A stretch of 64,000 nucleotides of DNA. It comes from Pseudoalteromonas piscicida (lineage in GTDB: Bacteria; Pseudomonadota; Gammaproteobacteria; Enterobacterales; Alteromonadaceae). The position numbers and the translations under genes were made by a program. Where the stretch lies: assembly GCF_002208135.1 (NCBI RefSeq), contig NZ_CP021646.1:1037501-1101500 (forward strand), read 5' to 3'. A model generated the notes under the pieces. The model saw only the letters and a list, made by a program, of their open reading frames with translations, was not told where the DNA came from and ran no database searches. This document shows, one piece after another, positions 2,321 to 26,145 of the stretch. Position 1 is the stretch's first letter; each line of letters opens with the position of its first letter.

Positions 2321-2529
2321 AGATTTCCAAATTTGAGGTGGGTGTCAGAGATTTCTTCGATTTTCACGCTTGCGCCCAAACTGCGTAAAAGCATTCCCTC
2401 TTAGTACAGGCAATCTACACTTACTGATTAAAATCTATCCCATTGTCAGTCATCACAAAATATCGTTTAATAAGGGCATTCAGCCCCAATCATGTGTTTA
2501 CGGGGTTAAGCAGTTTAAAAGGAATATTG

Positions 2530-9762: not shown

Positions 9763-10620
9763 TTATTCACTCAGTATTTTATCTAAATTCGCTTTTGAAC
9801 GGGCGACGCTTTCTAGTGGCGTTAGGCCACTTGGATATTCTTCTTGTTCGATGACCAGCCACTGTGTGCCGCCGTATTGCTGCATGGTTTGGATAAGCGC
9901 TTTCCAAGGGTAGTGGTTTTCGCCAATGATTGGGCTTTTGTCATCTCCTTGGTGAGTACGTATTTTAATATGTGTCGACACGGTTCTTCCTGCATATCGC
10001 TTAACATAATCGCTAGGTGATTTACCTGCGTAATTCACCCAGCCGACATCGAGCTGCAGTGGGAAGTCGCTAGGGGTGTTGGTGGCGATATAATCCCAAA
10101 AGGTGCTATTAGCGTATGGGTTAAACTCCTTTTCATGATTATGAAACCCGATCCTCATATCATAACGTTTGGCAATTTGGTGCACTTGGTTAAGCTGTTT
10201 TACAAATGCTTGCACTTGGTTTTTATCCCATGCTCTTTCATCCCAAGGAATAAAGAGCGTGGATACGCCTAAGGTTTTGTAAAAGAGTAGGGTGTTTGCC
10301 ACTTTGTCTTCAGTTAATGCATCAAAGCCGATGTGGGCGCTGCTCGCAACTAAGCCAAGCTCTGCTAGTCTTTGTTTTAATTTGCTTGGGTTATCGGCAT
10401 AGTTGCCAAAGTTTCCTGCAAATTCAACGCCATCAAATCCCATGTTGGCGAGTGCTTGCAAGGTGCCATCAAAGTCTCTTGCCAATTCCTCTTTTACCGA
10501 CCACAGTTGAACACTAACGGGTAACGACTGATTAGAGGCCTGCGCGTATAGCGGCAGCGCGATAATAAAAGCAATTAACAGTACTACTTGCTTTAATCGG
10601 TTGGTGTTTTCAACAAACAT
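9763..10620 (-). CDS. Secreted sugar phosphate isomerase/epimerase-like TIM barrel
   Basis: A 285-residue protein of the xylose-isomerase-like (AP endonuclease 2) superfamily. Residues ~8-28 form a signal peptide ending YAQAS, so it should act in the periplasm. Metal-site candidates are Glu in VEFAG, His in GFHNHEKEF, Asp in LQLDVGW and Glu in WLVIEQEEYP. Members act on keto-sugars as epimerases, isomerases or, in recent work, as lyases of 3-keto-glycosides. It is the last gene of the seven-gene operon that reads leftward from 17310, 70 bases after the GMC small subunit. Its exact reaction is unknown. Confidence 0.85.
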   Translation of the reverse strand: MFVENTNRLKQVVLLIAFIIALPLYAQASNQSLPVSVQLWSVKEELARDFDGTLQALANMGFDGVEFAGNFGNYADNPSKLKQRLAELGLVASSAHIGFDALTEDKVANTLLFYKTLGVSTLFIPWDERAWDKNQVQAFVKQLNQVHQIAKRYDMRIGFHNHEKEFNPYANSTFWDYIATNTPSDFPLQLDVGWVNYAGKSPSDYVKRYAGRTVSTHIKIRTHQGDDKSPIIGENHYPWKALIQTMQQYGGTQWLVIEQEEYPSGLTPLESVARSKANLDKILSE

Positions 10621-10690
10621 GATCTACTCCTAAAGAAAAAAAGCAGAGCTAGACTCTGCTTCGGTTAGCCATCACAAAATGACTCAAGGG

Positions 10691-11440
10691 CTAGTCGCGG
10701 TAGGCATACTGGCTTAGCCCAAGCTCTGCGAGTATGCCTTCTAGATGTGCCTTGGCTTCGGCAGTAGGCCCAGGATAATCACCTGCAATTGGTACATTGC
10801 CCAGATAACCTATATCTTGACAGCCTTCAGGTGTGCAGAAATAAGCGCCGAGAACGAGATCTTTAAAGCGCAAGAATGCTTTACCTATACGCTGAAATTG
10901 CTCTGGTGTTTGCGCATTAAAATAAGCAATATCATTCATAATTTTACTTTGCTGCGTTGCGCTAAGTTGTAAAAATGGCTTGTTAAAGCGCAAAGTCGAC
11001 TCATCGTCAATCCAAGCAAGCGCATGGAGTATTGTCACTCTGTCTTTTTGTTGTCCGTGATACGGTGCGCTTACCCACTCATCGATCACACTCGGTACTT
11101 GTACTTCAGAAGCCGATGGATGATTTCCTTCCTTAGGCACTATAAAATCAGCTAGTACTGCAACTAACGTGAGCTGCGCTTCGGTGAGGGTGAGCGGCCA
11201 AGGTGACTCTGGCGGCATGATCATGTTTGGATCGGTTCCATACCCTTGAGCGCTAACTGGCTTTATTTCAATATCTGGCCAGTGCCCGGCAGTAGCCGTT
11301 TCACCTTCAATGGCCTTGCTGCACCCAGCGGTGAGTGTTACCGCTGATCCCGCAGCAAGCAAGCCTAACCACTTTAATGACTCGCGACGTGTCATGCCTG
11401 AAATATATTTATAAGAATCAACGCGGACAGGTGTATTCAT
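10691..11440 (-). CDS. Gluconate 2-dehydrogenase subunit 3 family protein (Tat-exported small subunit)
   Basis: About 249 residues from the ATG at 11440 behind GGAG; a GTG one codon earlier is also possible. A twin-arginine signal TRRESLKWLG is followed by a hydrophobic stretch and LTAGC, so the protein may be Tat-exported and lipid-anchored. The rest is the subunit 3 domain, with LADFIVPKEGNHPSASE. In known FAD glucoside 3-dehydrogenases this small subunit pairs with a GMC catalytic subunit and carries it across the membrane. Here it directly follows the GMC gene, whose repaired stop would overlap this start. Confidence 0.9.
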   Translation of the reverse strand: MNTPVRVDSYKYISGMTRRESLKWLGLLAAGSAVTLTAGCSKAIEGETATAGHWPDIEIKPVSAQGYGTDPNMIMPPESPWPLTLTEAQLTLVAVLADFIVPKEGNHPSASEVQVPSVIDEWVSAPYHGQQKDRVTILHALAWIDDESTLRFNKPFLQLSATQQSKIMNDIAYFNAQTPEQFQRIGKAFLRFKDLVLGAYFCTPEGCQDIGYLGNVPIAGDYPGPTAEAKAHLEGILAELGLSQYAYRD

Positions 11441-11507
11441 CACAGCGCTCCTTTATCAATTTGTGCTGCCAACCAGGTGGAGTTTCGCATCGCTAAGGTC
11501 ATTATGG

Positions 11508-13118
11508 TTAAGGTACAATTTTTATGGGGTTAGACGCGAAGACACCGGCATCCATCACAAATAGATTGTCACAGTCCCATGTTTGGCCCCACTGATTCGT
11601 TACCGATTCTTTTGGTGAGCTGCCCATTCTCGTCGTGCCGACTTCATGAATGATCTCACCGCCTTTTGAAATGGCTTTTTCCGCAGGCGGTAGCTCGCCC
11701 ACTTTGGCACCCATGTTCTCAAGGATCTGTTTCGCGGTTTTGAGACCATGCTCGATTTGCTTAAGCTCTCTGTCAGACCATTTGAAATGGAACTTAGCAA
11801 CCGGGATCCCCCATTTATCTTTGACGTTTTCGTCAATTTCCATGTAAGAATCTTTGTTCGGTAGCATTTCTCCACGCAGCGCAAATCCAACATAAGAACC
11901 ATAAGCATCACGCACTTGCTGCTTTAACTTGGGACCATAACCTTGTTTATTGCCAGACACGCCAGAGCCCGGTTGATTAAAGCCGCTGCTAATTTCAAAG
12001 TGATAGCCGCGCGGGAAATTAAGCTCACCTTTCTCATGGGCTTTGTGTCCCCACCAAGGAATAAAAAGGTGGTTACCGGTATGGCCGTCTTCGTTATAAC
12101 GCGGGCGACCTTTTAACGCAGGGATTTGCGCACCAAGCCAAGCACCGGTAGAGTCCATTAGATTGCGACCTACCTGACCACTTGAGTTTGCAAGTCCCTT
12201 GGGATGTTTTGCATGTTTAGAATTAAGCAAAATACGGGCAGATTCACAGGCACTGGCCGCCAAAATCACCACATCTGCATTGAGTGCATGTTCTTGTGCT
12301 GACTTTTTATCGACGTAAGTCACACCAGTTACTTTGCCATCTTCATTCACCGCCACCGACTTCACCATGGCATCGGTGATCACCTCAAGGTTCCCTGTCG
12401 CTTTGGCCATCGGAATAAGCGAGGTTGTGGTTTGGAATGCTGCGCCAATTGAGCAACCGTGGCCACAAGGCGTGGCGTAAAAGCACGCTAAGCGGTCGTC
12501 TTTATTACGAGTGAGCACCGCTCTGTGCATAGGAACCGCTGGGATCCCCATTTTTTTCGCAGCCGCTGCAACCAATAATTCGGGTACTCTTGGCGTCGGT
12601 GGTGGCTGTAACACGCCAGGCGCAGAAGGAGGCATGTCATCCAAGCCGGTATTAGTACCACAGATCCCGACTATTTCTTCCGTTTTATCGTACCAAGGCG
12701 CAATGTCTTGATATTCAAACGGCCAATCAGCGCCATGTCCATCGCGGCTTTTGCCCTTAAAGTCGTGCTCACTAAAACGTAGCGAGTAGCGACCCCAGTG
12801 ATTGGTTCGGCCACCGAGCATACGTGCACGCCACCAATAAAAATCGGTGTTTTCAGCGCGCGTGTATGGTTCATCTGGCACTTGCCAACCGCCATCAATT
12901 GTCGCGTCGTAAAAACCAAAGTTCTTATCCTTATTGCCAGCGCCCATGAGTGGGGCTTCACTATTACGGCGGAACATCGGGCTTTCTGTTTTAGGGTCGT
13001 AATTTCTACCAGCTTCTAACAATAAAACTTTGTGACCTAGCTTGGTGAGTGTATAAGCAGCCATTGCGCCACCGGCACCTGAGCCGACGACCAATACTTT
13101 ATGATCAAATGTTGCCAT
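11508..13118 (-). CDS. GMC-family FAD dehydrogenase, catalytic subunit (C-terminus frameshifted)
   Basis: The 536-residue product has the Rossmann FAD motif VVGSGAGGAMAAYTL near the N-terminus and GMC signatures (GGRTNHWGRYSLRF, HEVGTTRMG). No signal peptide is present, consistent with piggy-back Tat export on the adjacent small subunit. The frame ends abnormally in FASNPIKIVP. Adding one base to the G run at 11526-11529 (C on the coding strand) restores NPHKNCTLTIMTLAMR and a stop at 11439-11441 touching the next start. The restored segment holds the His/Asn active-site motif of GMC enzymes. The likely reaction is oxidation of a sugar at C3. The break is probably a sequencing error. Confidence 0.88.
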   Translation of the reverse strand: MATFDHKVLVVGSGAGGAMAAYTLTKLGHKVLLLEAGRNYDPKTESPMFRRNSEAPLMGAGNKDKNFGFYDATIDGGWQVPDEPYTRAENTDFYWWRARMLGGRTNHWGRYSLRFSEHDFKGKSRDGHGADWPFEYQDIAPWYDKTEEIVGICGTNTGLDDMPPSAPGVLQPPPTPRVPELLVAAAAKKMGIPAVPMHRAVLTRNKDDRLACFYATPCGHGCSIGAAFQTTTSLIPMAKATGNLEVITDAMVKSVAVNEDGKVTGVTYVDKKSAQEHALNADVVILAASACESARILLNSKHAKHPKGLANSSGQVGRNLMDSTGAWLGAQIPALKGRPRYNEDGHTGNHLFIPWWGHKAHEKGELNFPRGYHFEISSGFNQPGSGVSGNKQGYGPKLKQQVRDAYGSYVGFALRGEMLPNKDSYMEIDENVKDKWGIPVAKFHFKWSDRELKQIEHGLKTAKQILENMGAKVGELPPAEKAISKGGEIIHEVGTTRMGSSPKESVTNQWGQTWDCDNLFVMDAGVFASNPIKIVP

Positions 13119-13120
13119 GG

Positions 13121-13816
13121 TTACAGCTCCTTGATCTTAATGTTTTTGAACCATACTTTGTCGCCGTGATCTTGCAGACCTATATGGCCTTTTTTACCTT
13201 CAGCAAACCCTTGCCATGTCGCAAATTTACTATTCTTGACCAAAGTATTCCAAGTGGTGCTGCCAATCACAATACTCGTTGTGCTTACACCATTTTGCCA
13301 AACTTGTAGGTGGCTATCTTGTAGCTTAATGCGAACTTGGTTCCAAGCTTCGGCAGGTTTATGTGCCGTACTTGGCGCGGCGAACAGGTCATAAATAGAA
13401 CCTGCAAGGTGAGAGTCTATTTTATTGTCTGGGTGCTCTTTGTTATCTAGAATTTGGATTTCTGGGGCGTGAGAGTATATAGCACCACCTTTTTCATCCG
13501 CCAATACAAAGATCCCACTGTTGCCTTTTTTGGAAATCTTCCAATCGAGCTGGAGCTCAAAATTCTGATATTGTTTTTTGGTCAGAATATCGCCGCCACC
13601 ACCTTGGGTAAGTGTCATCGCGCCGTCCTCAACTTGCCACTGGCTATTTAGGCCGTCACTTTTAAAGTTGCGCCATTGCGACATATCTTTGCCATCGAAT
13701 AGCAGTTGCCATCCAGCTTGTTGTTCTTGCGGGCTCAATTGGTTGTCAGTCGTACTAGCGCAAGCTGTACAACTAACGGCCAATGCCAGCGTTAGCATTT
13801 TTATAGAGTTGAGCAT
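13121..13816 (-). CDS. DUF1080 (3-keto-disaccharide hydrolase-type) lipoprotein
   Basis: The ATG at 13816 sits behind an AGG box and gives a 231-residue protein with a lipoprotein signal peptide (LALAVSCTAC, lipobox Cys near residue 19). The mature part is a DUF1080 concanavalin-like fold, with WQLLFDGKDMSQWRNF, NFELQLDWKISKKGNSGIF and PEIQILDN. This family is named for hydrolysis of 3-keto-disaccharides. Lipid anchoring places it in the periplasm or outer membrane beside the GMC dehydrogenase, which begins three bases after this gene ends. It fits cleavage of the oxidised glycoside before import. Confidence 0.9.
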   Translation of the reverse strand: MLNSIKMLTLALAVSCTACASTTDNQLSPQEQQAGWQLLFDGKDMSQWRNFKSDGLNSQWQVEDGAMTLTQGGGGDILTKKQYQNFELQLDWKISKKGNSGIFVLADEKGGAIYSHAPEIQILDNKEHPDNKIDSHLAGSIYDLFAAPSTAHKPAEAWNQVRIKLQDSHLQVWQNGVSTTSIVIGSTTWNTLVKNSKFATWQGFAEGKKGHIGLQDHGDKVWFKNIKIKEL

Positions 13817-13854
13817 ATTGGAACCTCGTCTGTTCACTTTTTACTTGTTGCTAC

Positions 13855-15072
13855 TTACGCGTATTTCTCAACGCGTTTATTTTTATTGATATAAAGGTAA
13901 AGGCCGATAAAAGCGGCAATGAGAATAGCTGGGAATAACAGGATATTTTCAAGCACCGCTTGACCTGCAACTAGTTCTGATTGCTGTGCGGTTAAGTTTG
14001 CCGCTTGGGCTTCGAGTCGCGCCGAATCAATCCAACTACCAATTACGGGGTTCCACATGCTGACAGCAAACATCCCCGCACCGCCCATTAGAGACATACC
14101 CAGTGCGCCTGTTTTTGGGGTGTATTCAGCAACGCAGCCCAGCATGGTTGGCCAAAAATAAGTGACACCCAAGGCAAATAATATTGCAGCCAAGTAGATT
14201 GCTGATCCTTGTGCTTGGCTCATCATGAAAATACCCGCGGTTGCCAGGACTGCAGAGCCGAGTAACACGCCTGTTGGGTTAAAGCGATGGACTATTGGAC
14301 CGGCAAAGAAGCGACCTAATGCCATCAAGCCTGTGATTAGCGCGAGGATCATCATAGGTGAGGCGCCTGACGCTCCCAGTATGCGTTCAATCCACTGTTG
14401 TGTACCAAGTTCAGTTGTTGCTGTTAAGGTCATACAGCAAATTAAAAATAGGTAGAGCGGAGAAAATAGGTGCTTGAGATTGCTGGTGGTAGAATGATCT
14501 GTGCGGTCAAATTCAGGAAACTGTGACTTGATCATCATCGCACCGTAAATCAGCGTTGGAATTAGTATCAAAGCAACTTGCCATTGCCAATTAAAGCCCG
14601 ATGCAGTCATGGCATTCGATGCCAGCGCACCAATCACAATGCCGCCTGGAAACCAGACATGGAATCGGTTGAGCATGGTCGTGGTGTTTTTCGGATACAT
14701 TTCGGCAATCAGTGGATTACATCCAGCTTCCACTGAACCATTCGCAAAGCCGATTAAAAACGTCGAGATCAGCAGTAACCAAAAACCATCAGCGGTAATG
14801 GTTAAAACCAACCCAGCAAAGTGGCAAATAAAGGCGAGGGCAACTAACTTTTTAGCGCCAATGGCGTTGTAGATTGCGCCACCTAACATGGTTGCGACGG
14901 GAAAGCCCAGAAATGCCATGGCGTTAACCCAACCAAGCTCTGTATCTGAGAGGCCAAACTGCTCACCTAATTGCCCCAAAATACCTGCGCGAATAGCGAA
15001 CGTCATTGATGTGACGACCAGTGCAAGGCAACAGAGCTGAAACACGGTCCGATTATGATTATTATTATTCAT
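13855..15072 (-). CDS. MFS sugar transporter
   Basis: A 405-residue major facilitator with about 12 hydrophobic segments. The fold resembles the FucP/nucleoside-proton symporter branch (FAIRAGILGQLGEQFGLSDTELGWVNAMAFLG, and GLMALGRFFAGP in the second half). It lies between the cytoplasmic epimerase gene (15 bases upstream) and the DUF1080 lipoprotein. Import of the oxidised or released sugar from the periplasm is therefore the likely role. The substrate cannot be read from sequence. Confidence 0.88.
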   Translation of the reverse strand: MNNNNHNRTVFQLCCLALVVTSMTFAIRAGILGQLGEQFGLSDTELGWVNAMAFLGFPVATMLGGAIYNAIGAKKLVALAFICHFAGLVLTITADGFWLLLISTFLIGFANGSVEAGCNPLIAEMYPKNTTTMLNRFHVWFPGGIVIGALASNAMTASGFNWQWQVALILIPTLIYGAMMIKSQFPEFDRTDHSTTSNLKHLFSPLYLFLICCMTLTATTELGTQQWIERILGASGASPMMILALITGLMALGRFFAGPIVHRFNPTGVLLGSAVLATAGIFMMSQAQGSAIYLAAILFALGVTYFWPTMLGCVAEYTPKTGALGMSLMGGAGMFAVSMWNPVIGSWIDSARLEAQAANLTAQQSELVAGQAVLENILLFPAILIAAFIGLYLYINKNKRVEKYA

Positions 15073-15086
15073 GGTCGTAGTCCTGT

Positions 15087-16142
15087 TTATTTTATGCCGA
15101 GGATTTGATTATTGCGTTCGGTATCGGTGCTACTTCCTGCAAAATCATCGAAGGCTTTTTCGGTTGGTCTGATCAAGTGCTGTTTGATAAATTCAGCGCC
15201 TTCTTTGGCCCCATCTTCAGGGTGCTTAATACAGCATTCCCACTCCAATACAGCCCAACCATCAAAACCGTACTGTGTTAACTTACTAAATATTTTCTTA
15301 AAGTCGACCTGTCCGTCACCTAATGAACGAAACCGTCCTGGCCGTTGTTGCCATCCTTGGTATCCGCCGTAAACACCGCAGCGGCCATTGGGGATAAATT
15401 CGGCATCTTTTACATGGAACGCTTTGATACGTTCATGATAGATGTCGATAAATGCCAAGTAGTCCAATTGCTGTAAGACAAAGTGACTTGGATCGTAAAG
15501 AATATTGGCTCGCGGGTGATTATTCGTCGCCGCTAAAAAGCGCTCAAAAGTCACGCCATCGTGTAGATCTTCACCTGGATGAAGCTCATAGCACACATCC
15601 ACGCCAGCCTCGTCAAAGCGGTTCAAAATAGGCAACCAGCGTTTTGCGAGCTCCCCAAACCCTTGTTCCACCAAGCCATTTGGACGTTGTGGCCAGGGGT
15701 AAAAGGTGTGCCAGAGCAAGGCGCCAGAAAAGCTTGCGTGACTGGTTAGTCCGAGCTTAGCACTGGCACTGGCCGCTAGCATTAGCTGCTCTGTTGCCCA
15801 CGCCATACGAGCCTGAGGAGAGCCATGCACTTTTGCTGGTGCAAAGCCGTCGAACATTTGATCATAAGCTGGGTGCACCGCCACTAATTGACCCTGCAAA
15901 TGGGTTGATAGCTCTGAAATAGTAAGGCCATGCTCTGCGGCAATACCAGTGATCTCGTCGCAATAATCTTGGCTTTCAGCGGCTTTTTGCAGATCAAACA
16001 GTCGCTGTTCCCAACTTGGTAGCTGAATACCTTTATAACCTAGGTTACTTGCCCACTGGCAAATACTATTAAAATTGTTAAATGGCGCCTCGTCCGAGAC
16101 AAACTGCGCGAGAAAAATAGCGGGTCCTTTAATTTGCTTCAT
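15087..16142 (-). CDS. Cytoplasmic sugar phosphate isomerase/epimerase
   Basis: The ATG at 16142 gives a 351-residue protein (MKQIKGPAIFLAQF) and leaves seven bases to the upstream Gfo/Idh/MocA stop; the frame stays open further upstream only because it overlaps that gene. It is a xylose-isomerase-like TIM barrel with metal-ligand candidates in CYELHPGEDLHD, ILYDPSHF, KAFHVKDAEF and AVLEWECC. No signal peptide is seen, so it acts in the cytoplasm, unlike its paralogue at the end of the operon. Such enzymes epimerise or isomerise keto-sugars; here it probably acts with the neighbouring NAD(P)-dependent oxidoreductase. Confidence 0.9.
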   Translation of the reverse strand: MKQIKGPAIFLAQFVSDEAPFNNFNSICQWASNLGYKGIQLPSWEQRLFDLQKAAESQDYCDEITGIAAEHGLTISELSTHLQGQLVAVHPAYDQMFDGFAPAKVHGSPQARMAWATEQLMLAASASAKLGLTSHASFSGALLWHTFYPWPQRPNGLVEQGFGELAKRWLPILNRFDEAGVDVCYELHPGEDLHDGVTFERFLAATNNHPRANILYDPSHFVLQQLDYLAFIDIYHERIKAFHVKDAEFIPNGRCGVYGGYQGWQQRPGRFRSLGDGQVDFKKIFSKLTQYGFDGWAVLEWECCIKHPEDGAKEGAEFIKQHLIRPTEKAFDDFAGSSTDTERNNQILGIK

Positions 16143-16149
16143 TCTTATT

Positions 16150-17310
16150 TTATCCAATGGTAAAGGGGTGCCACTTAGTGTCTTTTGCACTAGCTGCGAC
16201 CGCGTTTTCAATAAATGCCATGCCACGGACTGCAGCGTTAATACTTGGCACGTCAAATTCTTCGTGTTGCACATCGGGTTGTTGCTGATGCGCACGAATA
16301 AGGTTGGCGAAGTTAAGGTAGATATTTGCAAATGCTTCCAGATATCCCTCAGGGTGACCTGCTGGCACACGAGTTGCGCTAATGGCTGCTTGGCTAAGTG
16401 AGCCCACTCCTGTGCGGATCAACTGAGCTGGGGCGTTTGCCGCACGTAACCACAAACTATTAGGCTCCATTTGCGACCATTCGATACTGGCTTTGTCGCC
16501 ATAGATTTTTAAGGTGAGATTATTTTCTTCGCCAAGTGCTATCTGGCTTGCCATCAACACGCCCTTTGCACCGTTGCCAAAGCGCAGTAACACGGTGCCG
16601 TCATCGTCGAGTTGTCGGCCGGACACGACCGTATTTAAATCCGCACAAAGCGCCTCTATCTCCAAGCCACTCACATATTCGGCAAGGTTCGCTGCGTGTA
16701 CACCGATATCGCCCATACAACAACTCACGCCAGACTTGCTTGCATCTAGTCGCCAGCTGGCTTGCTTGCTGTTTTCATCATCAGCACTTGCAAGCCATCC
16801 TTGACTGTATTCAACGACGACTTTGCGTATATTGCCAAGTTCGCCGTTTGCAATGCGGTGGCGTGCCTCTTTCACCATCGGGTAGCCGGTATAGGTGTGT
16901 GTTAATCCGTACAAGCAATTGCTATCTTGAAGCTGCGTTTGTAGACGCATAGCCTCAGATAAATTTAGCGTAGCTGGCTTATCACTCAGGACGTGAAAGC
17001 CGTGTTCGATAGCGGCTGTGGCAATCGGAAAATGCAAATGGTTTGGGGTCACGATGGCAACAAAGTGGATGCGCTCCGCCTCTGGTAATTCCGCCTCTTG
17101 TTGTAAGAGTGCTTGATAGCTGGCATAGCAACGCGCTGGGTTAAGCCCGAGTTGTTGGCCCATTGCTAGGCTTTTGTTTGGATCGGCGCTAAATGCGCCT
17201 GCAACGAGTTCAATTTGGCCATCTAAACGCGCGGCTATGCGGTGTACTGCACCTATGAAAGCACCTTCTCCACCACCGATCATGGCCATGCGGATTTTGT
17301 TATTATCCAT
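16150..17310 (-). CDS. Gfo/Idh/MocA-family oxidoreductase
   Basis: A 386-residue NAD(P)-dependent sugar dehydrogenase. The N-terminal Rossmann motif is IRMAMIGGGEGAFIGAVHR, and the family lysine lies in SDKPATLNLSEA. The C-terminal domain contains GVSCCMGDIGVHAANL and AGHPEGYLEAFANIY. It is cytoplasmic and is the first gene of the operon, divergent from the PAS-AraC regulator at 17468. In 3-keto-glycoside pathways this family oxidises glycosides or reduces 3-keto sugars; which direction applies here is not decidable. A 48-bp conserved element lies about 70 bases upstream of the start. Confidence 0.92.
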   Translation of the reverse strand: MDNNKIRMAMIGGGEGAFIGAVHRIAARLDGQIELVAGAFSADPNKSLAMGQQLGLNPARCYASYQALLQQEAELPEAERIHFVAIVTPNHLHFPIATAAIEHGFHVLSDKPATLNLSEAMRLQTQLQDSNCLYGLTHTYTGYPMVKEARHRIANGELGNIRKVVVEYSQGWLASADDENSKQASWRLDASKSGVSCCMGDIGVHAANLAEYVSGLEIEALCADLNTVVSGRQLDDDGTVLLRFGNGAKGVLMASQIALGEENNLTLKIYGDKASIEWSQMEPNSLWLRAANAPAQLIRTGVGSLSQAAISATRVPAGHPEGYLEAFANIYLNFANLIRAHQQQPDVQHEEFDVPSINAAVRGMAFIENAVAASAKDTKWHPFTIG

Positions 17311-17378
17311 CGTTTAGCTCCATCGAGTTATCGAGGTAAGTTAATCTGATGTTATTGATAATAGGTAACAGAGGCGCC

Positions 17379-17426
17379 AAAGTGATAATAAAAATTCGGT
17401 TGACAATGCAACAAAATCGGCGTTTA
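17379..17426 (+). promoter_or_regulatory. 48-bp conserved element, copy 1 (divergent Gfo operon / araC-type promoter region)
   Basis: Forty of 48 bases match the reverse complement of 19977-20024. Conserved blocks are AAAGTGATAATA, TTCGGTT and a perfect 16-mer ACAAAATCGGCGTTTA, at identical spacing. The element contains a TTGACA (17400-17405) which, with TTTAAA 17 bases on, could be the promoter of the PAS-AraC gene. Its presence in the only two divergent intergenic regions of the locus makes it the best candidate operator for that regulator. Confidence 0.7.
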
Positions 17427-17467
17427 AAATAAATTATTATAATTATAAAAAGGCGGGAAATAGGGCA

Positions 17468-19042: not shown

Positions 19043-19785
19043 TGTATTGCCTTTTCTGATCCGGTGAGTATTGCATTAACTAGCCTTGGGCAAACTTCAT
19101 CGCCATGATGCACGCCAGAGTGAGTATGTAGAGAGAGTGGACCAAATTCACTTAAAAGCCAAAGATCCGCTGCGTTTTTCGTGTTGACCCCTCCACCGAT
19201 CACAACTTCGATTTCAGCATTGAGTTTTTTCAGTAAGGCAATGAGCTGACTGGTACCAAACGCTGCGCCTTTGCCACTTTGCCATGTATTGCCGGCGCTT
19301 AAGACCCGCTCAACGCCTAGCTCTAGCAGCGTCTCGGCTGCCTGCTGCCAGTTTGCAGCGGCGTCAAAAGCGCGATGAAAGGTGACAGAAAGGCCTAAGG
19401 ATTTTGCCGTGGCAATAAGTGCTCTACAATGGTCAGCCGCTATCTCCTGATTGTCGTCGATAAAACCAAGCGCAATACCGGTTGCGCCAGCGCAAGCAAT
19501 GCCATCTATCCCTTTTTGTAACTGATAAAGCATGGTGTCATCAATAGAAAAATGCGGTGCTTGGCGTAACATCACAATACATTCGCCAAAGCTTGGTAAA
19601 TACTGGGCAACTGCCGCTATCGCCGTCGGGTTTGGGGTCAAGCCACCGCAACTCAGTGCACCGCAGAGTTCTATCCTTGTTGCACCTGATGCAAAAGCAA
19701 TTTGTGCATTTCGCTGCAACAAATGAGGATTATCGCTGCTGAGGCATATTTCCAAGTTTTTACCTGAATAGTTTGCCGAATTCAT
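19039..19785 (-). CDS. cutC: CutC-family protein
   Basis: A 248-residue TIM-barrel protein with the CutC family signatures LEICLSS, GATRIELCGALSCGGLTPN, MLRQAPHF, VTFHRAFD and VVIGGGVN. CutC was named for copper homeostasis, but its biochemical activity is unsettled. Its placement as the first gene of a two-gene operon with a sugar kinase, inside a sugar locus, suggests a metabolic role here. It reads away from the TonB-dependent receptor, and the shared upstream region carries the second copy of the 48-bp element. Confidence 0.9.
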   Translation of the reverse strand: MNSANYSGKNLEICLSSDNPHLLQRNAQIAFASGATRIELCGALSCGGLTPNPTAIAAVAQYLPSFGECIVMLRQAPHFSIDDTMLYQLQKGIDGIACAGATGIALGFIDDNQEIAADHCRALIATAKSLGLSVTFHRAFDAAANWQQAAETLLELGVERVLSAGNTWQSGKGAAFGTSQLIALLKKLNAEIEVVIGGGVNTKNAADLWLLSEFGPLSLHTHSGVHHGDEVCPRLVNAILTGSEKAIQ

Positions 19786-19976
19786 ATTTCACTCTTGAAG
19801 TTGAATAATTTTAAAGTTTAAAATGCTTGGTTTTGAATATTTAATTAGTTCAATAAAAACATTTAGTTACACATGTTTGGAACGTTTTTAAATTGCCTAA
19901 TATAGAAACTAATAATGAGTTTTTATGTTAATCAGACTATAAACCAAGGAAATTGAAATTGGATCTTTTTTTGACC

Positions 19977-20024
19977 TAAACGCCGATTTTGTCTTAGTGC
20001 AAACCGAAATTCTATTATCACTTT
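19977..20024 (-). promoter_or_regulatory. 48-bp conserved element, copy 2 (cutC / TonB receptor divergent region)
   Basis: On the minus strand this matches 17379-17426 at 40 of 48 positions with the same internal spacing; the 16-mer (as TAAACGCCGATTTTGT on the plus strand, 19977-19992) is exact. It lies about 190 bases upstream of cutC and 146 bases upstream of the receptor start, inside the 384-base gap between them. Nothing else recognisable is present in the gap. Confidence 0.7.
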
Positions 20025-20169
20025 TTGTAGAGCGCTCCTATTCTGAACGAGTGTTTCACAAACCATTAACCCCTATAGGGAAACAAAAAAGGGTCGTCAC
20101 AAAGTCATGCGTCATGGAGCAGCAAGGGACGTCATGGCTTTACAAATTATAAAAAACTTGGAGATAGGA

Positions 20170-23154
20170 ATGGCCAATAATAATAACAGACGCCATGTGA
20201 CAGGAAGATCACGGCAATTTAGCAAGTCTGCACTGGTCCTCGCTATGTTATCAGCTACTAACTGGGCAATGGCTGAAGAAACCGAAAAAGAGGAAGCGCA
20301 GGAAATCGAAACGATTGAGGTGCGTGGGATCCGTGCATCCATGGCCGAAAACTTGGCGATTAAGCGTTTATCAAACGCGATTGTGGATGCCATTACAGCA
20401 GAAGACATCGGCAAGTTTCCCGATAAAAATGTGGCGGATTCACTGCAACGCGTACCCGGCGTAGTGATTTCTCGTAGTGGCGGGGAAGGGGAAAACGTCA
20501 GTATCCGTGGTCTTTCATCTGATCTTACTTTTACGCAGTTAAACGGCAATTTTATCGCTTCTTCTCCGGGCTCGCCGTCGCGCTCTTTTAGTTACTCTTT
20601 GTTGCCTTCTACCATGGTGCAATCGGTTGAAGTGTTTAAGTCTTCAGAGGCGCGTTTAGATGAAGGTGGGGTGGGCGGCACGGTTATTCTACACAGCCGC
20701 AAACCGCTGGATATGGAGGCAAATTCTGGGGCGTTGAATGTTGAATATACCTACGCTGATGTGACTGAAGAGTACGAGCCTAATTTTAGCGGCGTTTATT
20801 CTTGGAAGAACGAAGAAGAAACCTTTGGCTTGCTAGTTGGTTATACCAAACAAGACCGCACCAACCGCTCGTTAGGCGGTGATATGTCGGGCGGTGGCGG
20901 TTGGCGTTGGGCAACGAGTTCAGACTTGCCAGCGGCGGACACGGCGGGCAATGTGATTGCCGATAGTACACGTCGATTTGCAGCGTTAGAAGATGCTTAT
21001 GGCAACGTCTATGACGGTGTTTGGGCACCGCAAGTTGCAGGTGTTGGGGTAACCAAAGAAAAACGCGAACGTCAGGGGTTACAAGCCACCATTCAATGGC
21101 GTCCAATAGATGATTTATCTTTAACATTCAATCATTTTCATTTTGAGCTTGGGCAAAATCGCACCACGTCACAAATGTGGATCCCAGAATGGAAGTACAA
21201 CCCAGATTATCTTACCGGTATTACCCTAGACGAAACCGGTACGATTGTGACAGGCATGGACTTTACCAGTGGCGCTGGTGGCACTGAAGGAAATCTTGAA
21301 TTTCCTTGGATCATTGGTAGCTATACCGTAGAAAAAGATACCTCGGATACCTACGACTTCGCTTTTGAATATGCTGGTGATTTATATGATTTGCGCGGTA
21401 AATTTGGTCGCACTGAGGCCAGCGGTGGCCCTTCAGAATCTTGGAGCGCGGCGTATAAAAGCGGCCAACCTGCGAGTCGCAGCGATTCTGGGTTGGTTGA
21501 AAACGCCGCTGCATTTGCAGGGTGGCGATTAGGTGACAGAGTGTCGTTGTACGCTGATCCCGCTTTGCTGTCTAACCTTCAGGCTGGTATTGCAGGCGAT
21601 CCCGATCCGGGTTCGACAGGTTCAAGCTTTATCGTCAGTGACTTAGAAGAAGACTATGCCCAGTTAGATCTTGATTATCGCGTCGGGTACGGCATCGTTG
21701 ATACGCTGCGTGTTGGTGCTAAATATCGTAAAGCGACACTGCACCGCGAAACCAACAACACCTTCTTCATCACTCAAGATGGGGCTGACAGAATTGCCAG
21801 TGGGGAGCTTGATCCATTCAGTCAAGGTGCCATTGATGAAGTGTCTTATCAGTGGATTGGTGGTATGCCAAAACTGGAAGATATTTTGAATGCAACGTCT
21901 GAACAAAATATCCCCGGCGGTTTTGAAGTGAATGCGATGCCCACGATCAATTGGGACCGATACCGCGAAATTGTGACCAGTGAATATGTTAAGCACACGC
22001 GACGTGAGCCTGATTTTGTGTTCGACATAGAAGAAGAAATCATGGCAGCCTATCTACAAGCCGATTTTTCTTTTGGAGATTTTAGAGGAAACATCGGGGT
22101 ACGCTATGTCGAGACTGAAACGCAGATTATGTCGTCGGATAAAATCAACTACTTTTTAGATGACATTGATGATGTCACCGAAGAGGATATTTTAGGTGAT
22201 GAACGTCTCATTGATGTTGAAACCACCACCGTGCGTACCGTTACCGACTCGCAATTTTTACCTAGTTTCAACATTGTCTGGGATGCCAGCGACAATCTTG
22301 TCATACGTGGTGCTATCGCCAAAACGATGTCTCGAGCTCCGTTCAACGATATGGGGGCGCCAGAACAGCTGACCTTTATCTCTCAAGAGTGGGCAGACGA
22401 TAGACTAGAGTTTAGAGGCAACCCTGTGGAGCCAGGATGGCGTGGCTCAGGTGGTAACAAGGCCCTAAAACCATTTGAGTCGGTACAGATGGATTTATCT
22501 GCGGAGTATTATTATGGCGAAGGATCTGCGGTTGGGATTGCGCTATTCAACAAAGACGTAGACAACTTTATCGTGCCCTTGATTATCACCTCGGTAAGGC
22601 CATTTGAGGGCTTTAATAACCCTTTTACCGGTGTTGAAATTGTGCCGCCGGGTGATATTACCGTCACACCGTTTACCACCACCGCTAATGGTACAAACGC
22701 AACCTCTCGGGGCATCGAGCTGTTTGCACAACATGCATTCGATAATGGCTTTGGTCTCAACGTTAACTACACCCTAAACGATACCAATCAGGCAGACATT
22801 AGCGTAGACGGTGAAAAGGTCGGTGAGTCTGCGCTTGTCGGTAGCGCTGATAATCAATTTAACTTCTCCGCCTATTACGAAAATGACACCTTTAGTGTCA
22901 GAGCGTCATATAACCGCCGAGGAGAAACCGCTCTGGGGCTTGCGGACGGACTCACTGTGTATCAGGAACCGTACCAACAAGTTGATGTGAACGTCTCTTA
23001 CAACCTGATGGAAAACCTGAGCCTAACCGCGTCTGTGATCAACCTAACCAAAGAAGAACCGAGAACCTTTTATGGTGAAGATTCTAAAGCGAGATTGCGC
23101 AGCAGCAGTTACACCGGCCAGCGCTACTATGCTGGGATCACCTATCGATTTTAA
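20170..23154 (+). CDS. TonB-dependent outer-membrane receptor
   Basis: The ATG at 20170 lies next to GGAGATAGGA and gives 994 residues; an in-frame ATG at 20107 is less likely. A signal peptide ends near NWAMA. A TonB-box-like segment (EIETIEVRG) and the plug follow, with DIGKFPDKNVADSLQRVPGVVISR, NVSIRGL and VEVFKSSEA. A large 22-strand barrel ends in the expected aromatic YRF. It belongs to the plug type common in marine carbohydrate-utilisation loci. It is expected to import an oligosaccharide or glycoside across the outer membrane using TonB energy, and it is followed by a surface lipoprotein gene. Confidence 0.95.
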   Translation: MANNNNRRHVTGRSRQFSKSALVLAMLSATNWAMAEETEKEEAQEIETIEVRGIRASMAENLAIKRLSNAIVDAITAEDIGKFPDKNVADSLQRVPGVVISRSGGEGENVSIRGLSSDLTFTQLNGNFIASSPGSPSRSFSYSLLPSTMVQSVEVFKSSEARLDEGGVGGTVILHSRKPLDMEANSGALNVEYTYADVTEEYEPNFSGVYSWKNEEETFGLLVGYTKQDRTNRSLGGDMSGGGGWRWATSSDLPAADTAGNVIADSTRRFAALEDAYGNVYDGVWAPQVAGVGVTKEKRERQGLQATIQWRPIDDLSLTFNHFHFELGQNRTTSQMWIPEWKYNPDYLTGITLDETGTIVTGMDFTSGAGGTEGNLEFPWIIGSYTVEKDTSDTYDFAFEYAGDLYDLRGKFGRTEASGGPSESWSAAYKSGQPASRSDSGLVENAAAFAGWRLGDRVSLYADPALLSNLQAGIAGDPDPGSTGSSFIVSDLEEDYAQLDLDYRVGYGIVDTLRVGAKYRKATLHRETNNTFFITQDGADRIASGELDPFSQGAIDEVSYQWIGGMPKLEDILNATSEQNIPGGFEVNAMPTINWDRYREIVTSEYVKHTRREPDFVFDIEEEIMAAYLQADFSFGDFRGNIGVRYVETETQIMSSDKINYFLDDIDDVTEEDILGDERLIDVETTTVRTVTDSQFLPSFNIVWDASDNLVIRGAIAKTMSRAPFNDMGAPEQLTFISQEWADDRLEFRGNPVEPGWRGSGGNKALKPFESVQMDLSAEYYYGEGSAVGIALFNKDVDNFIVPLIITSVRPFEGFNNPFTGVEIVPPGDITVTPFTTTANGTNATSRGIELFAQHAFDNGFGLNVNYTLNDTNQADISVDGEKVGESALVGSADNQFNFSAYYENDTFSVRASYNRRGETALGLADGLTVYQEPYQQVDVNVSYNLMENLSLTASVINLTKEEPRTFYGEDSKARLRSSSYTGQRYYAGITYRF

Positions 23155-23298
23155 CTTTGGCGATAACCATAAAGTAATGCAAACAGGGTGAAGTCGTGTC
23201 AGCACAACGAGAAACAATATCACGGCTTATCACCAGTTTGAGATGCGTTTATATCAGCCTAGCTGCATAAGTTGGTTGGTATTTAAGAAGGGATAAAT

Positions 23299-26145
23299 AT
23301 GAAAACGTTAAATAAAATAAGAAATGCGATCCCGCTGATTGCCGTTAGCAGTCTATTGGCTGCATGCGGCGGAGGGAGTGATGACCCAAAAGTTGAAGAA
23401 GTGCCAGTAACCCCCGCGGTGACGACGGCGGAAGTATCAGGCTCAGTGATAAAAGGCGCATTGAGCCAAGCCCGCATTTCGGTGACGGCGCTCAATGGCT
23501 CTAGCATGATGATGGATGAGAACTCGGCAACTAGTCAAACGGGAGAGCTGTTTATAGAACTGACGGGTAAAGCCGGGTTTGGCATTAATTCTACCATTAA
23601 AGTGACCGCCACAACGAGCGAAGGCTCGCAGATGCGCTGCGACGCCAGTCGCTGTGGTTCTGTAGGAATTGGGGAACAGGTAAGTGGTGATTACATTGCA
23701 GGTGTGACTTTGGCTACCTTAAGTCATGTCGCCGTGCCGTTTGGTTCAAATGCCGATGGCAGTGCTGATGCTAACATACAAATCAACGCCTTGACGACAC
23801 TAACAACCATGCTGGTGGAACAGCAGATTGCTGAGGGACGTAATGTCTCCACTCCCGAATTAATGGCACTGGCAAAAGCGGATATGTCTGCGTTATTGCT
23901 TCGGGCCCTTGGCTGGCAAACCGGGAACACCAATGTTTTTGAGTTACCTGTGGTTAGCGCTGATCAATTAACGAATTTTGAATTAGGGGAAACTTGCACA
24001 ACCTCTGACTCTGGCGAGCAAAGTTGCGAGATGACGTATGTTTCTGAGAGCGTTCAAAAGCTTTCTCTATTCAATGCCGCATTTGCACAATTTGACGAGC
24101 AAGGCTCTTTGCAAGGCGTCTTAAGCGATGCTGCTAGCAATCTCAGCGCGGCACTTGGCGGTGATGAAGCTGCACTTGAAGCGCTTCGATTGCCAATTTA
24201 CAACGCGCTTCAAGCTCATCCACTGACTGCTGAGCTAGGCCTCAGTGCCGATAGTATTGTGGACTTGGCGTTACCACTATTTGATGAGCCGGTATCCACG
24301 GGACCCATGCAGCAAGTCGTGACATCTGGTGCCACTATTACTGCAAGAAATGCGATTGGTGATGCCGAGAGTGCAGACAAAGCATTTGATGGTGATCCGC
24401 AAACTAAATGGTTAGACCACAATGATTGGCAGGGACCACCTACTGAGGAAGCGCCATCTTGGATCCAAGTGGACTTTCCCACTCAACAAGCAATTAGCGG
24501 TGTTTACATTACCAGTGCTAATGATGCCCCAGAGCGAGATCCTGAAAACTTCTCTTTATTAGCTTCTAACGACGAGGGGGTGAGTTGGGTTAATTTGGGT
24601 AATGTGGTTGGGGCGTCGTTTGAAGCGCGCTTTGAACGCCAAGGCTTTGTATTTGCTAATGCACAAAAGTATACAAGCTACCGGATCGCAGTGACAAAAA
24701 ACAAAAATAACGATGGCTTACTGCAAATTGGAGAAATTCAATTTGTGGGGCCTGTTTATCCGAGCGTAGACCATACTGATACTGATACTGAGACGTTTGC
24801 GGTCACGGCAAGCAATAGTATCGGTGAGGCAGAAAATCAAGATAAGGCATTTGATAATGACCCAACCACTAAGTGGCTGGATCATAATGATTGGCAAGGC
24901 CCGCCTACTGTCGAAGCGCCTTCATGGATTCAAGTAGACTTTAATGAGGCGGTGGCGGTTAATCAGCTTGCGATAACGAGCGCCAATGATGCACCAGAGC
25001 GAGATCCTGAGAACTTTGCTTTACTTGGTTCTAACGATAACGGTGTTACATGGCAGCGGTTGAGTAATTGGGTTGGTGAATCTTTTGAAGCGCGAGGGGA
25101 GCGTAAAAGCTTTGCGGTAGCAAATCAATTGCCATACCAAAGCTATCGCCTTGAGATAACCAAGAACAAAAATAATGATGGCTTGATGCAGCTTGCTGAG
25201 ATTGAATTAATCGGCCCAGAAATCTCTGGATTAGATCATGCACAAGTACAAGGGGCAGGTTACTCGGCGCGCTTTAGTATTAGTGATTCAGAGGGCGCAG
25301 CGCAAGCATTTGATAAAAATGTTGAAACTAAATGGCTCGATCACAATGACTGGCAAGGGCCTCCCACCGCTGAAAACCCAGCTTGGATCCAAGTTAGCTT
25401 GCCGCAAGCGCAAGCGGTAAATACTTTGTACATTACCAGCGCCAATGATGCGCCGGAGCGAGACCCTGAAAACTTCCAGCTTTTAGCATCTCACGATGGG
25501 GAAGTATGGCAAGTATTAAATACTTGGGTAGGGGAGTCGTTTGAATCGCGTTTCGAACGTCGTGCCTTTGCGTTTGCTAATGGCTTGGCTTACTCACATT
25601 ATCGCTTGTCTATCAGTAAAAATGCGAATAATGACGGGTTAGTGCAAATAGCCGAAATTGAACTCGCTGGACCTCAGTACGCACTTGAAGATTTGTCTGA
25701 CTTGGCTGGAACAAGCTTTACCGCGCGTAATCGTATTGGAGACGCGGAAAGTGAGCAAAAGGCGTTTGATAATGATATCGAGACAAAATGGCTAGATCAC
25801 AATGAGTGGCAAGGACCGCCAACAGAGGAGTCTCCATCTTGGATCCAAGCTGACTTTACTGCGCCACAGATTGTGAGTGGTTTGGCAATCACCAGTGCGA
25901 ATGATGCACCAGAGCGCGATCCCGAAAACTTCCAGTTACTGGGTTCTAATGATAGCGGTGAGACCTGGACAGAAGTCGCGGTTTGGGTGGGTGAGAGCTG
26001 GGATGAGCGCTTACAACGAAGAGCGTTTACTTTCTCCAATGCTTTTGCCTATAGCAGTTATCGTTTAAGCATTAGCAAAAATGCGAATAACGATGGCTTA
26101 GTACAGATCTCAGAAATCGAGTTACTTGGTCTTAGCGGCGAATAG
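23299..26145 (+). CDS. Lipoprotein with four tandem F5/8 type C (discoidin)-like modules
   Basis: A 948-residue protein with a lipoprotein signal (SSLLAACGGGSDD). Residues ~45-320 form an N-terminal region I do not recognise. Four ~145-residue modules follow (starting near residues 345, 500, 655 and 800). Each contains KAFDxDxxTKWLDHNxWQGPPT, SWIQVDF, ITSANDAPERDPENF and a YRLxISKNxNNDGLxQIxEIEL ending, which is the discoidin/F5-8C carbohydrate-binding pattern. It is probably a surface glycan-binding partner of the receptor encoded 144 bases upstream. No catalytic domain is evident. Confidence 0.88.
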   Translation: MKTLNKIRNAIPLIAVSSLLAACGGGSDDPKVEEVPVTPAVTTAEVSGSVIKGALSQARISVTALNGSSMMMDENSATSQTGELFIELTGKAGFGINSTIKVTATTSEGSQMRCDASRCGSVGIGEQVSGDYIAGVTLATLSHVAVPFGSNADGSADANIQINALTTLTTMLVEQQIAEGRNVSTPELMALAKADMSALLLRALGWQTGNTNVFELPVVSADQLTNFELGETCTTSDSGEQSCEMTYVSESVQKLSLFNAAFAQFDEQGSLQGVLSDAASNLSAALGGDEAALEALRLPIYNALQAHPLTAELGLSADSIVDLALPLFDEPVSTGPMQQVVTSGATITARNAIGDAESADKAFDGDPQTKWLDHNDWQGPPTEEAPSWIQVDFPTQQAISGVYITSANDAPERDPENFSLLASNDEGVSWVNLGNVVGASFEARFERQGFVFANAQKYTSYRIAVTKNKNNDGLLQIGEIQFVGPVYPSVDHTDTDTETFAVTASNSIGEAENQDKAFDNDPTTKWLDHNDWQGPPTVEAPSWIQVDFNEAVAVNQLAITSANDAPERDPENFALLGSNDNGVTWQRLSNWVGESFEARGERKSFAVANQLPYQSYRLEITKNKNNDGLMQLAEIELIGPEISGLDHAQVQGAGYSARFSISDSEGAAQAFDKNVETKWLDHNDWQGPPTAENPAWIQVSLPQAQAVNTLYITSANDAPERDPENFQLLASHDGEVWQVLNTWVGESFESRFERRAFAFANGLAYSHYRLSISKNANNDGLVQIAEIELAGPQYALEDLSDLAGTSFTARNRIGDAESEQKAFDNDIETKWLDHNEWQGPPTEESPSWIQADFTAPQIVSGLAITSANDAPERDPENFQLLGSNDSGETWTEVAVWVGESWDERLQRRAFTFSNAFAYSSYRLSISKNANNDGLVQISEIELLGLSGE

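Follow-up and report, generated by a model that had tools for sequence, protein, structure and literature searches.

Cleavage of glycosides without glycosidases, by way of 3-keto sugars, has become a theme of recent work. An Agrobacterium operon encoding GlycDH with a TAT protein, AtOGE, AtHYD and Gfo carries out oxidation, β-elimination, hydration and reduction (PMC10628242; also Kastner 2024 Angew. Chem., as cited in PMC12101588). In Caulobacter, LacABC has been linked with DUF1080 by genetics (PMC9007349), and the LgdA-B1-B2-C pathway of Bacillus smithii for levoglucosan likewise proceeds by oxidation, elimination, hydration and reduction (PMC7676230). The nix cluster of Xanthomonas is an N-glycan locus, in which cutC is found together with an asparaginase (PMC6718126, PMC5700972). 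In the parts of this literature available to us, glycosidase-free 3-keto cleavage is treated for small glycosides, and a search joining 3-keto-glycoside with N-glycan yielded, judging from the listed results, nothing on their combination.

The window considered here is a stretch of 64,000 nucleotides of DNA from the marine bacterium Pseudoalteromonas piscicida, in which the block of interest occupies positions 9763-26145 (Table 1). Pfam matches confirm that all the genes named in the initial annotation are present with the families as stated, and its description of the block as free of glycoside hydrolases is upheld, as no Pfam glycoside hydrolase family matches any of the block's proteins. 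The ORF of the hydratase homologue (15087-16370) is overextended at its start: PDB 8ro4 aligns from ORF residue 77, and the start was therefore corrected to give what is, by this alignment, the gene proper, of 351 aa.

Table 1. Genes and predicted operators of the block (positions within the window).
Feature	Position	Strand	Matches and remarks
Secreted xylose-isomerase-like protein, AP_endonuc_2; predicted AtOGE-like periplasmic 3-keto-glycoside β-eliminase	9763..10620	-	PF01261; PDB 8tct/8tcd/8tcs/8bvk
Tat-signal small subunit of GMC dehydrogenase, Gluconate_2-dh3	10691..11443	-	PF13618
FAD GMC dehydrogenase, predicted glycoside 3-dehydrogenase	11508..13118	-	PF00732/PF05199
DUF1080 / 3keto-disac_hyd protein, second candidate cleaving enzyme	13121..13837	-	PF06439; PDB 4jqt, 3hbk, 8tda, 8rr2
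MFS transporter, predicted keto-sugar or glycal importer	13855..15072	-	PF07690
2-hydroxy-3-keto-glucal hydratase homologue (AP_endonuc_2), predicted cytoplasmic	15087..16142	-	PDB 8ro4
Gfo/Idh/MocA oxidoreductase, predicted 3-keto-glucose reductase	16150..17310	-	PF01408/PF22725; 370 bits to 3v5n
Predicted operator 1, between gfo and PAS-AraC	17381..17428	+	two AWTCGG half-sites, 21 bp apart
PAS-AraC regulator	17468..18202	+	PF08448, PF12833
BadF-type kinase (BcrAD_BadFG), probable N-acetylglucosamine kinase	18182..19042	-	PF01869; PDB 1zc6
CutC, divergent family member	19039..19785	-	has the CutC fold and family match
Predicted operator 2, between CutC and TonB receptor	19975..20022	-	same element as operator 1
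TonB-dependent receptor, TonB-Xanth-Caul type	20107..23154	+	TIGR01782, 632 bits
Lipoprotein-like protein with four F5/8 type C (discoidin) stretches, predicted surface glycan binder	23299..26145	+	PF00754

The initial annotation had regarded the pathway as undescribed. However, what the seven minus-strand genes of the operon encode is very probably a pathway already known, as oxidation, β-elimination, hydration and reduction are reported for Agrobacterium (PMC10628242) and for levoglucosan in B. smithii (PMC7676230). In the eliminase-like protein, H160, H162, D191, H217 and E258 align with His132, His134, Asp163, His189 and Glu233 of AtOGE, and these five active-site residues are retained in 35 of 36 window-type rows, the remaining row being cut short. 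Its N-terminus is predicted to be a signal peptide-like stretch, that of the small subunit a twin-arginine and lipobox-like stretch, and that of the DUF1080 protein signal- or lipoprotein-like. The GMC protein, whose nearest solved structures are glucose and fructose dehydrogenases, is predicted from family membership to form a sugar C3 dehydrogenase with the Tat-signal subunit. The GMC subunit, the small subunit and the DUF1080 protein occur together in the operon, as expected from LacABC with DUF1080, and the PF06439 match of the last (177.6 bits, cut-off 26.8) is the sole one in the window genome. LacABC includes a cytochrome-type third subunit, whereas no cytochrome c family is matched among the block's proteins; the dehydrogenase has no such partner there, but one may be encoded elsewhere in the genome. 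The cytoplasmic isomerase-like protein, which had been assigned an epimerisation, matches PDB 8ro4, a solved 2-hydroxy-3-keto-glucal hydratase, with 593 bits across 350 residues; it therefore appears to be a hydratase relative, not an epimerase, and for 'epimerised' one should read 'hydrated'. Relatives of this hydratase act on glucose-derived glycals; that mannose- or GlcNAc-derived ones are used here is a guess. A role of the Gfo/Idh protein as 3-keto-glucose reductase is predicted from its family. The remainder of the annotated scheme, that is, periplasmic C3 oxidation and cleavage, MFS import and reduction, agrees with the sequence.

The operon is tied to its neighbours by a 48-bp element that stands before it and again between the CutC-kinase and receptor-discoidin genes. 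The exact core of this element has two matches in the 64 kb and zero in 100 shuffles, and the best 44-mer common to both operator regions agrees at 36/44, compared with at most 28 for 195 other window tiles. Identity was 34-38/44 in all 20 rows (18 genomes) from which both regions could be cut out, against 23-28 for shuffles. The element is present in 22/22 loci with PAS-AraC and CutC and in 18/32 with PAS-AraC only, being absent above 18 bits from the other 14 of these; matrix matches were also obtained in 19 loci lacking CutC, none of which was in the training set. Because this element is common to them, the 3-keto operon, CutC-kinase and receptor-discoidin genes are predicted to form one PAS-AraC regulon, in which binding of the regulator to the operators is inferred from the DNA.

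A comparison of gene neighbourhoods, as the initial annotation had suggested, covered 81 loci (L001 and 80 others), 59 of which have an MFS homologue, and the operon genes do co-occur elsewhere. CutC is held by 16 of these loci, all in the same order, receptor / CutC-BadF / PAS-AraC / Gfo-hydratase-MFS-DUF1080-GMC-sub3-isomerase, to the limit of the fetched DNA, where L002 and L008 end at contig edges and L011 and L017 have one extra ORF. This conserved order with differing flanks is more than chance. Two receptors each are found in L013 and L014. The discoidin gene is present in 8 of the 16, is missing beside the receptor in L006, L007, L009, L010 and L012, and would lie beyond the fetched DNA in L008, L013 and L014. 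Among 99 Pseudoalteromonas genomes, whose relatedness makes such counts overstate independence, 42 have the hydratase (>500 bits) and 30 have CutC; in all 30 CutC is accompanied by the hydratase, 2900-3016 bp away, and CutC without it was not seen in any of the 99.

What kind of locus did the CutC half come with? In other Alteromonadaceae, relatives of the window's receptor, discoidin lipoprotein, kinase and CutC adjoin glycosylasparaginase, GH85, GH92 and GH2 mannosidase, and such loci are N-glycan loci. In 46 Alteromonadaceae loci, 42 of which were selected for CutC, we counted BadF in 35, TonB-dependent receptor in 34, glycosylasparaginase in 32, discoidin in 31, GH85 in 25, and GH92, GH2 mannosidase and SSF in 24 each; their asparaginase scores 415 bits to a solved glycosylasparaginase versus 141 to isoaspartyl peptidase. 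The window receptor is nested with receptors of GH85/GH92 loci in a 14-row clade (support 100, by a quick method other than bootstrap). A different receptor type, to which a Shewanella receptor adjoining a 3-keto module comes nearest, accounts for seven rows from CutC-bearing loci, and two of the loci concerned carry both types. Two further Alteromonadaceae genera (g80 and g101) have a 3-keto module directly in line with the N-glycan set, glycosylasparaginase included, as fused loci whose arrangements differ from the window type. In the isomerase-like protein of these fused loci, E and P stand in the positions of H160 and H217, so that two of the five AtOGE residues are not kept and the protein may have a different role there. 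The common operator, the constant spacing and the N-glycan link together support the earlier assignment of CutC and kinase to the locus.

The set is incomplete in the window genome (G000), as it has no GH85, like all 99 Pseudoalteromonas genomes, and no true glycosylasparaginase but a 109-bit paralogue; no N-glycan glycosidase or glycosylasparaginase is found among the block's own proteins. One GH92 lies outside the block, and the genome may be able to hydrolyse mannosides anyway. A true glycosylasparaginase is present in 6 of the 99 genomes, always within 12 kb of CutC, and a GH99 at locus L089. The kinase is a probable N-acetylglucosamine kinase, its match to NF046058 NagK_SO3507 (253 bits) lying below the cut-off of 370. 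CutC belongs to a family whose conservation reaches as far as humans and which is classed under copper homeostasis. Its genomic context points to glycan catabolism: CutC adjoins glycosylasparaginase in 10 of 12 sampled Pseudomonadota genomes having both, an adjacency that hints at its function.

On balance, we favour the block being a single regulon, itself devoid of glycosidases, for the consumption of a glycoconjugate, with an N-glycan-type diet. A glycan or glycopeptide would be bound and taken up by the TonB receptor and discoidin lipoprotein. The GMC dehydrogenase, which the Tat-signal subunit would accompany on its export, would oxidise a non-reducing sugar of it at C3 in the periplasm. 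Loss of the leaving group by 1,2-elimination, catalysed by the AtOGE-like protein, by DUF1080 or by both, would then give 2-hydroxy-3-keto-glucal, to be carried into the cytoplasm by the MFS protein, hydrated to 3-keto-glucose and reduced to glucose by the Gfo/Idh protein, the reactions and the direction of transport being predicted from families and active-site residues. PAS-AraC would bind the 21-bp-spaced direct repeat preceding the operon and preceding the receptor and CutC-kinase genes. With a likely diet of N-glycan type (mannose/glucose and GlcNAc), a substrate deduced from linkage, recovery of the GlcNAc core would fall to CutC and the GlcNAc-kinase-like protein. The best reading is that the 3-keto-lyase pathway replaces or supplements glycosidases for such substrates.

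An alternative that deserves attention, though we think it rather unlikely, is a pathway for ordinary plant or algal β-glucosides, which recruited receptor, discoidin protein, kinase and CutC from an N-glycan locus merely as an uptake system no longer seeing N-glycans. The resemblance of the enzymes to those of the Agrobacterium phlorizin pathway, the 19 loci in which the Gfo-hydratase unit and the same element occur without CutC, the seven receptors of the other type and the want of glycosylasparaginase and GH85 in the window genome all suit it; it accounts poorly for an operator shared by CutC and kinase, for the constant CutC spacing in 30/30 genomes, for glycosylasparaginase at the locus in six genomes and GH99 in L089, and for the fusions in two other genera. 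GlcNAc-type glycosides (chito- or muro-oligosaccharides) could instead be handled directly: GlcNAc would be oxidised at C3 and released by elimination, and 3-keto-GlcNAc would undergo reduction and then phosphorylation by the BadF kinase. That kinase and the neighbours of the g80 fused locus (GH3, an HGSNAT-type protein, NamZ and an SIS protein of the GKRP/MurQ kind) speak for this, but the enzyme that the hydratase very closely resembles takes its name from 2-hydroxy-3-keto-glucal, not from a 2-acetamido glycal, and glycosylasparaginase and GH85 in relatives indicate N-glycans, which makes it quite improbable. Hardly credible is the joining, through common descent, of two unrelated neighbours, a 3-keto operon and a GlcNAc/copper locus: the single arrangement common to the 16 CutC loci would agree with it, but not the operator of both halves, the constant company of CutC and hydratase, or the differing fusions.

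The N-glycan reading can be extended, speculatively and with little confidence, to Pseudoalteromonas and at least two other Alteromonadaceae genera dismantling N-glycans by C3 oxidation and β-elimination, with two periplasmic lyases (DUF1080 and AtOGE-like) of different anomeric preference replacing mannosidases. As the C2 configuration is lost on elimination, one hydratase would serve for mannosides and glucosides alike. The substrate of CutC would be 1-amino-GlcNAc, either as such or after phosphorylation by the adjacent kinase, to be converted into GlcNAc or GlcNAc phosphate; 1-amino-GlcNAc, which glycosylasparaginase releases, is not known to break down other than spontaneously. If true, this would give a function to a copper-filed family. 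Since CutC is paired with glycosylasparaginase and a GlcNAc-kinase-like protein, the long-standing question of its role can be put directly to the test with a single class of substrates. Should glycoprotein glycans be what the locus feeds on, an annotation that relies on glycoside hydrolases overlooks it.

Compared with the Agrobacterium operon (PMC10628242), the window shares a dehydrogenase with a Tat-signal partner, an AtOGE-like eliminase with metal and base residues, a close relative of a named hydratase and a Gfo/Idh reductase. In the window, however, the eliminase is a secreted protein, the set is extended by DUF1080 and an MFS importer, and the genes for a TonB receptor, a discoidin lipoprotein, a kinase and CutC come under the regulator's predicted operator as well. 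Like the Caulobacter system (PMC9007349), it has a periplasmic 3-dehydrogenase adjoining a secreted DUF1080 protein, but its block has no cytochrome-type partner, and hydratase, eliminase and receptor are added. The same four steps and two isomerase-like proteins recur in the Lgd pathway of B. smithii, which uses an NAD-linked dehydrogenase on an anhydrosugar, whereas a periplasmic flavoenzyme is predicted here. A TonB receptor and CutC are common to the window and the nix cluster, and to the GH85/GH92 loci of Alteromonadaceae, which also have a homologous discoidin lipoprotein and kinase; in place of the glycosidases and glycosylasparaginase of these N-glycan loci, the window has the 3-keto operon. 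What is new is the wiring: a known oxidise-and-eliminate pathway joined, under one predicted switch, to uptake and salvage genes otherwise of glycoprotein-glycan loci, a combination suggestive of an unusual diet and of a role for the orphan protein CutC.

The locus is predicted from sequence to join a 3-keto-lyase pathway to one half of an N-glycan locus, the half for uptake and GlcNAc salvage; this combination is new, and substrate and activities are predicted as well. That the two halves are wired together is indicated by an operator common to both and by gene fusions seen more than once. Every open reading frame and family listed in the initial annotation was found in the block 9763-26145 by ORF calling and profile search, and its observation of the locus was right. 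The PAS-AraC gene is divergent from the keto operon (gfo, hydratase, MFS, DUF1080, GMC, subunit 3 and secreted isomerase-like genes), and the CutC and BadF-type kinase genes, which overlap by four bases, are divergent from the TonB receptor and discoidin genes.

Coordinates of features in the window and in loci of related genomes (L129 and L130, fused loci; L089, a Pseudoalteromonas locus)
Feature	Location	Strand	Remarks
Keto operon, seven genes	Gfo/Idh 16150-17310 to secreted isomerase-like 9763-10620	minus	gaps 2 to 70 bp, calculated with the hydratase start moved to 16142 (alignment with PDB 8ro4)
GMC flavoenzyme	11508-13118	minus	predicted periplasmic
Predicted operator core, first match	17395-17426	+	before gfo
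Predicted operator core, second match	19977-20008	-	before receptor gene
Sel1-repeat protein	2443-4722		18 Sel1 repeat matches
ORF overlapping the Sel1-repeat gene	4569-5624		weak DUF2971 match
GH92 alpha-mannosidase, window genome	C2:480406-481797		the one GH92; second contig
Tat-signal isomerase-like protein	L129 15471-16394		two of five AtOGE residues absent
Tat-signal isomerase-like protein	L130 5045-5953		two of five AtOGE residues absent
GH99 (endomannosidase family)	L089 16011-17198		after discoidin gene; then glycosylasparaginase, then second receptor with same operator
Border of fused locus	L129 3055-9659		NamZ, GKRP/MurQ-like SIS protein, second BadF-like kinase and SSF-like transporter on one strand; GH3 on the other

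The chemistry initially proposed, oxidation at C3 and cleavage in the periplasm followed by import, epimerization and reduction, is mostly right, except that the cytoplasmic isomerase-like protein is a hydratase relative: it matches PDB 8ro4 (593 bits over 350 residues), an entry that carries the name 2-hydroxy-3-keto-glucal hydratase and presumably stems from the 2024 work of Kastner. Its nearest named relatives are from Pseudoalteromonas, strains S2755 and HM-SA03 at 99% and a strain of P. piscicida at 95%, which places the DNA of the window within this group of the genus. The DUF1080 and Gfo/Idh proteins match solved structures of their respective families. The secreted isomerase-like protein is weakly similar overall to AtOGE (8BVK; 44 bits), and its H160, D191, H217, E258 and H162 align with AtOGE His132, Asp163, His189, Glu233 and His134. 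These are all the residues to which PMC10628242 gives a role as base or, in the productive subunit, as metal ligand (Glu233 a weak one). All five are kept in 35 of 36 window-type rows above 150 bits, the remaining row being incomplete; in the fused-locus rows L129 and L130, added by hand to this alignment, only H162, D191 and E258 are kept, and the remaining positions hold E and P. The profile search saw no gene for a cytochrome or other electron acceptor of the GMC flavoenzyme in the block. By these matches, the keto operon is predicted to carry out known chemistry.

Among 99 Pseudoalteromonas genomes CutC is present in 30 and the hydratase (>500 bits) in 42, and all 30 CutC carriers have the hydratase, 2900-3016 bp from CutC (Fisher p 5e-16, uncorrected for kinship). 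True glycosylasparaginase (>570 bits) is found in six of the 99, all CutC carriers, less than 12 kb from CutC; in the two of these that were read (L088, L089), it follows the discoidin gene. The remaining glycosylasparaginase matches in the genus, including that of the window genome, are paralogues (≤121 bits). L090 has an ORF of similar size at the place of the L089 GH99 gene.

One long element is common to the intergenic regions before gfo and before the receptor gene, and it is oriented alike towards the two genes. Its core, TTCGGTT-N10-CAAAATCGGCGTTTA, has exactly two matches in the 64 kb and none in 100 dinucleotide shuffles. The best 44-mer common to both regions agrees at 36 of 44 positions, against at most 28 when the first region is compared with 195 further tiles of 321 bp from the window. 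All 20 rows that contain both regions (from 18 genomes, some present twice) give 34-38 of 44, and five shuffles of each row give 23-28. A matrix built from 28 sites in 14 loci, with a cut-off of 18 bits, finds no site above it in 0.79 Mb of single-base-shuffled loci. Sites are present in 22/22 loci with PAS-AraC and CutC, in 18/32 with PAS-AraC but without CutC, and in L036, which lacks a PAS-AraC match; thus, the element accompanies the PAS-AraC/gfo unit first. It fades or differs in remoter relatives, and the 14 PAS-AraC loci with neither CutC nor a site are L019, L021, L022, L026, L029, L030, L035, L037, L040, L043, L044, L051, L053 and L056. The element also lies upstream of each of two receptors in L013 and L014, upstream of a second receptor in L089 and L090, and, in L038, between PAS-AraC and a receptor of a different type. 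Two half-sites 21 bp apart would fit an AraC-type protein, and the keto operon, the CutC-kinase pair and the receptor-discoidin pair are predicted to form one regulon.

Where the CutC half comes from is suggested by its relatives. Of 295 Alteromonadaceae genomes, 43 carry CutC homologues, at 46 places; 46 loci were read, 42 around CutC (including L082 and L084), the other four (L083, L085-L087) being centred on the hydratase. With one representative annotated per new family, these hold CutC in 42 (by selection), BadF in 35, TonB receptor in 34, Asparaginase_2 in 32, discoidin in 31, GH85 in 25, and GH92, SSF symporter and GH2 with mannosidase domains in 24 each; five are window-type keto loci. 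The L088 asparaginase scores 415 bits against a solved glycosylasparaginase versus 141 against an isoaspartyl peptidase. In their usual roles, GH85 cleaves the chitobiose core, GH92 and GH2 take off mannose, and glycosylasparaginase splits GlcNAc-Asn, so the set at CutC loci is an N-glycan set. In L097, L098, L100, L114 and L123, CutC has neither the kinase nor a receptor beside it and stands near GGDEF/EAL-like genes, a second conserved setting unrelated to the first; L115 and L117 show neither setting. In a tree built by a quick method, the window receptor falls in a 14-row clade (8 keto, 3 GH and 3 fused loci; support 100) nested in a 37-row clade with 24 GH-locus receptors (support 99). 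Seven same-position receptors of Pseudoalteromonas loci are of another type, grouping with one Shewanella gaetbuli receptor.

Both sets stand in line in two further Alteromonadaceae genera. The g80 run, in one direction, is GH3, HGSNAT-like, transporter, Gfo, hydratase, DUF1080, Tat-signal isomerase-like, GMC, subunit 3, receptor, discoidin, BadF, CutC and glycosylasparaginase (annotated in L129/L125; L128/L122 alike by size and matches; L132 and L133 read from GMC onward, with Gfo just upstream). The G220 run (L130/L127) is transporter, Gfo, hydratase, LacI, DUF1080, isomerase-like, GMC, subunit 3, receptor, discoidin, BadF, GH85, CutC and glycosylasparaginase. Gene order and regulator are not those of the window, and the GMC proteins are 52-53% identical to its own, so an accident of a single arrangement is unlikely to explain the joining. 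The border genes of L129 suggest muropeptide salvage adjoining the fused locus.

The adjacency of CutC to glycosylasparaginase offers a lead on what CutC does. In a set of 398 Pseudomonadota genomes, 17 carry glycosylasparaginase (E up to 1e-50), 69 carry CutC and 12 carry both (Fisher p 9e-7 for co-occurrence); the two genes lie less than 2 kb apart in 10 of the 12 (G207, G601, G605, G774, G790, G865, G721, G653, G829, G052; four families), nine of them within 220 bp; in the other two (G713, G813) CutC lies elsewhere. Five of the 17 lack CutC. The predicted CutC model (pLDDT 95.1) is a CutC barrel whose next structure matches are phosphosugar enzymes, and residues invariant in 32 sequences include E12, C14, E39, L40, C41, R74, H137, R138, D141 and H220. 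The glycosylasparaginase product 1-amino-GlcNAc is not metabolizable, is unstable at acidic pH and decays to GlcNAc before GlcNAc kinase acts (PMC6960285). An enzyme for this conversion would be of benefit to a marine organism at alkaline pH, and we hypothesize that it is CutC, whose gene stands where such an enzyme would be expected. The hypothesis also has to account for those CutC carriers in Pseudoalteromonas that have no glycosylasparaginase (24 of 30), in which a similar compound would have to come from some other source.

The CutC/N-glycan association is partly published. According to PMC6718126, the nix cluster of Xanthomonas has its N-glycan genes in one region with cutC, labelled as resistance to copper, and PMC5700972 has an asparaginase near nix, listed with cutC among predicted VirK partners; the meaning of the association was not found in the portions of the literature searched. 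The initial annotation had placed the novelty in an unrecognized pathway, a claim not supported for the oxidize-eliminate-hydrate-reduce chemistry, already published in PMC10628242 and PMC7676230. The Agrobacterium system in the former is similar in make-up (GlycDH with a TAT protein, AtOGE, AtHYD and a Gfo oxidoreductase), and in Caulobacter, LacABC has been tied to DUF1080 (PMC9007349). The levoglucosan route of PMC7676230 has the same four steps as those proposed for the keto operon.
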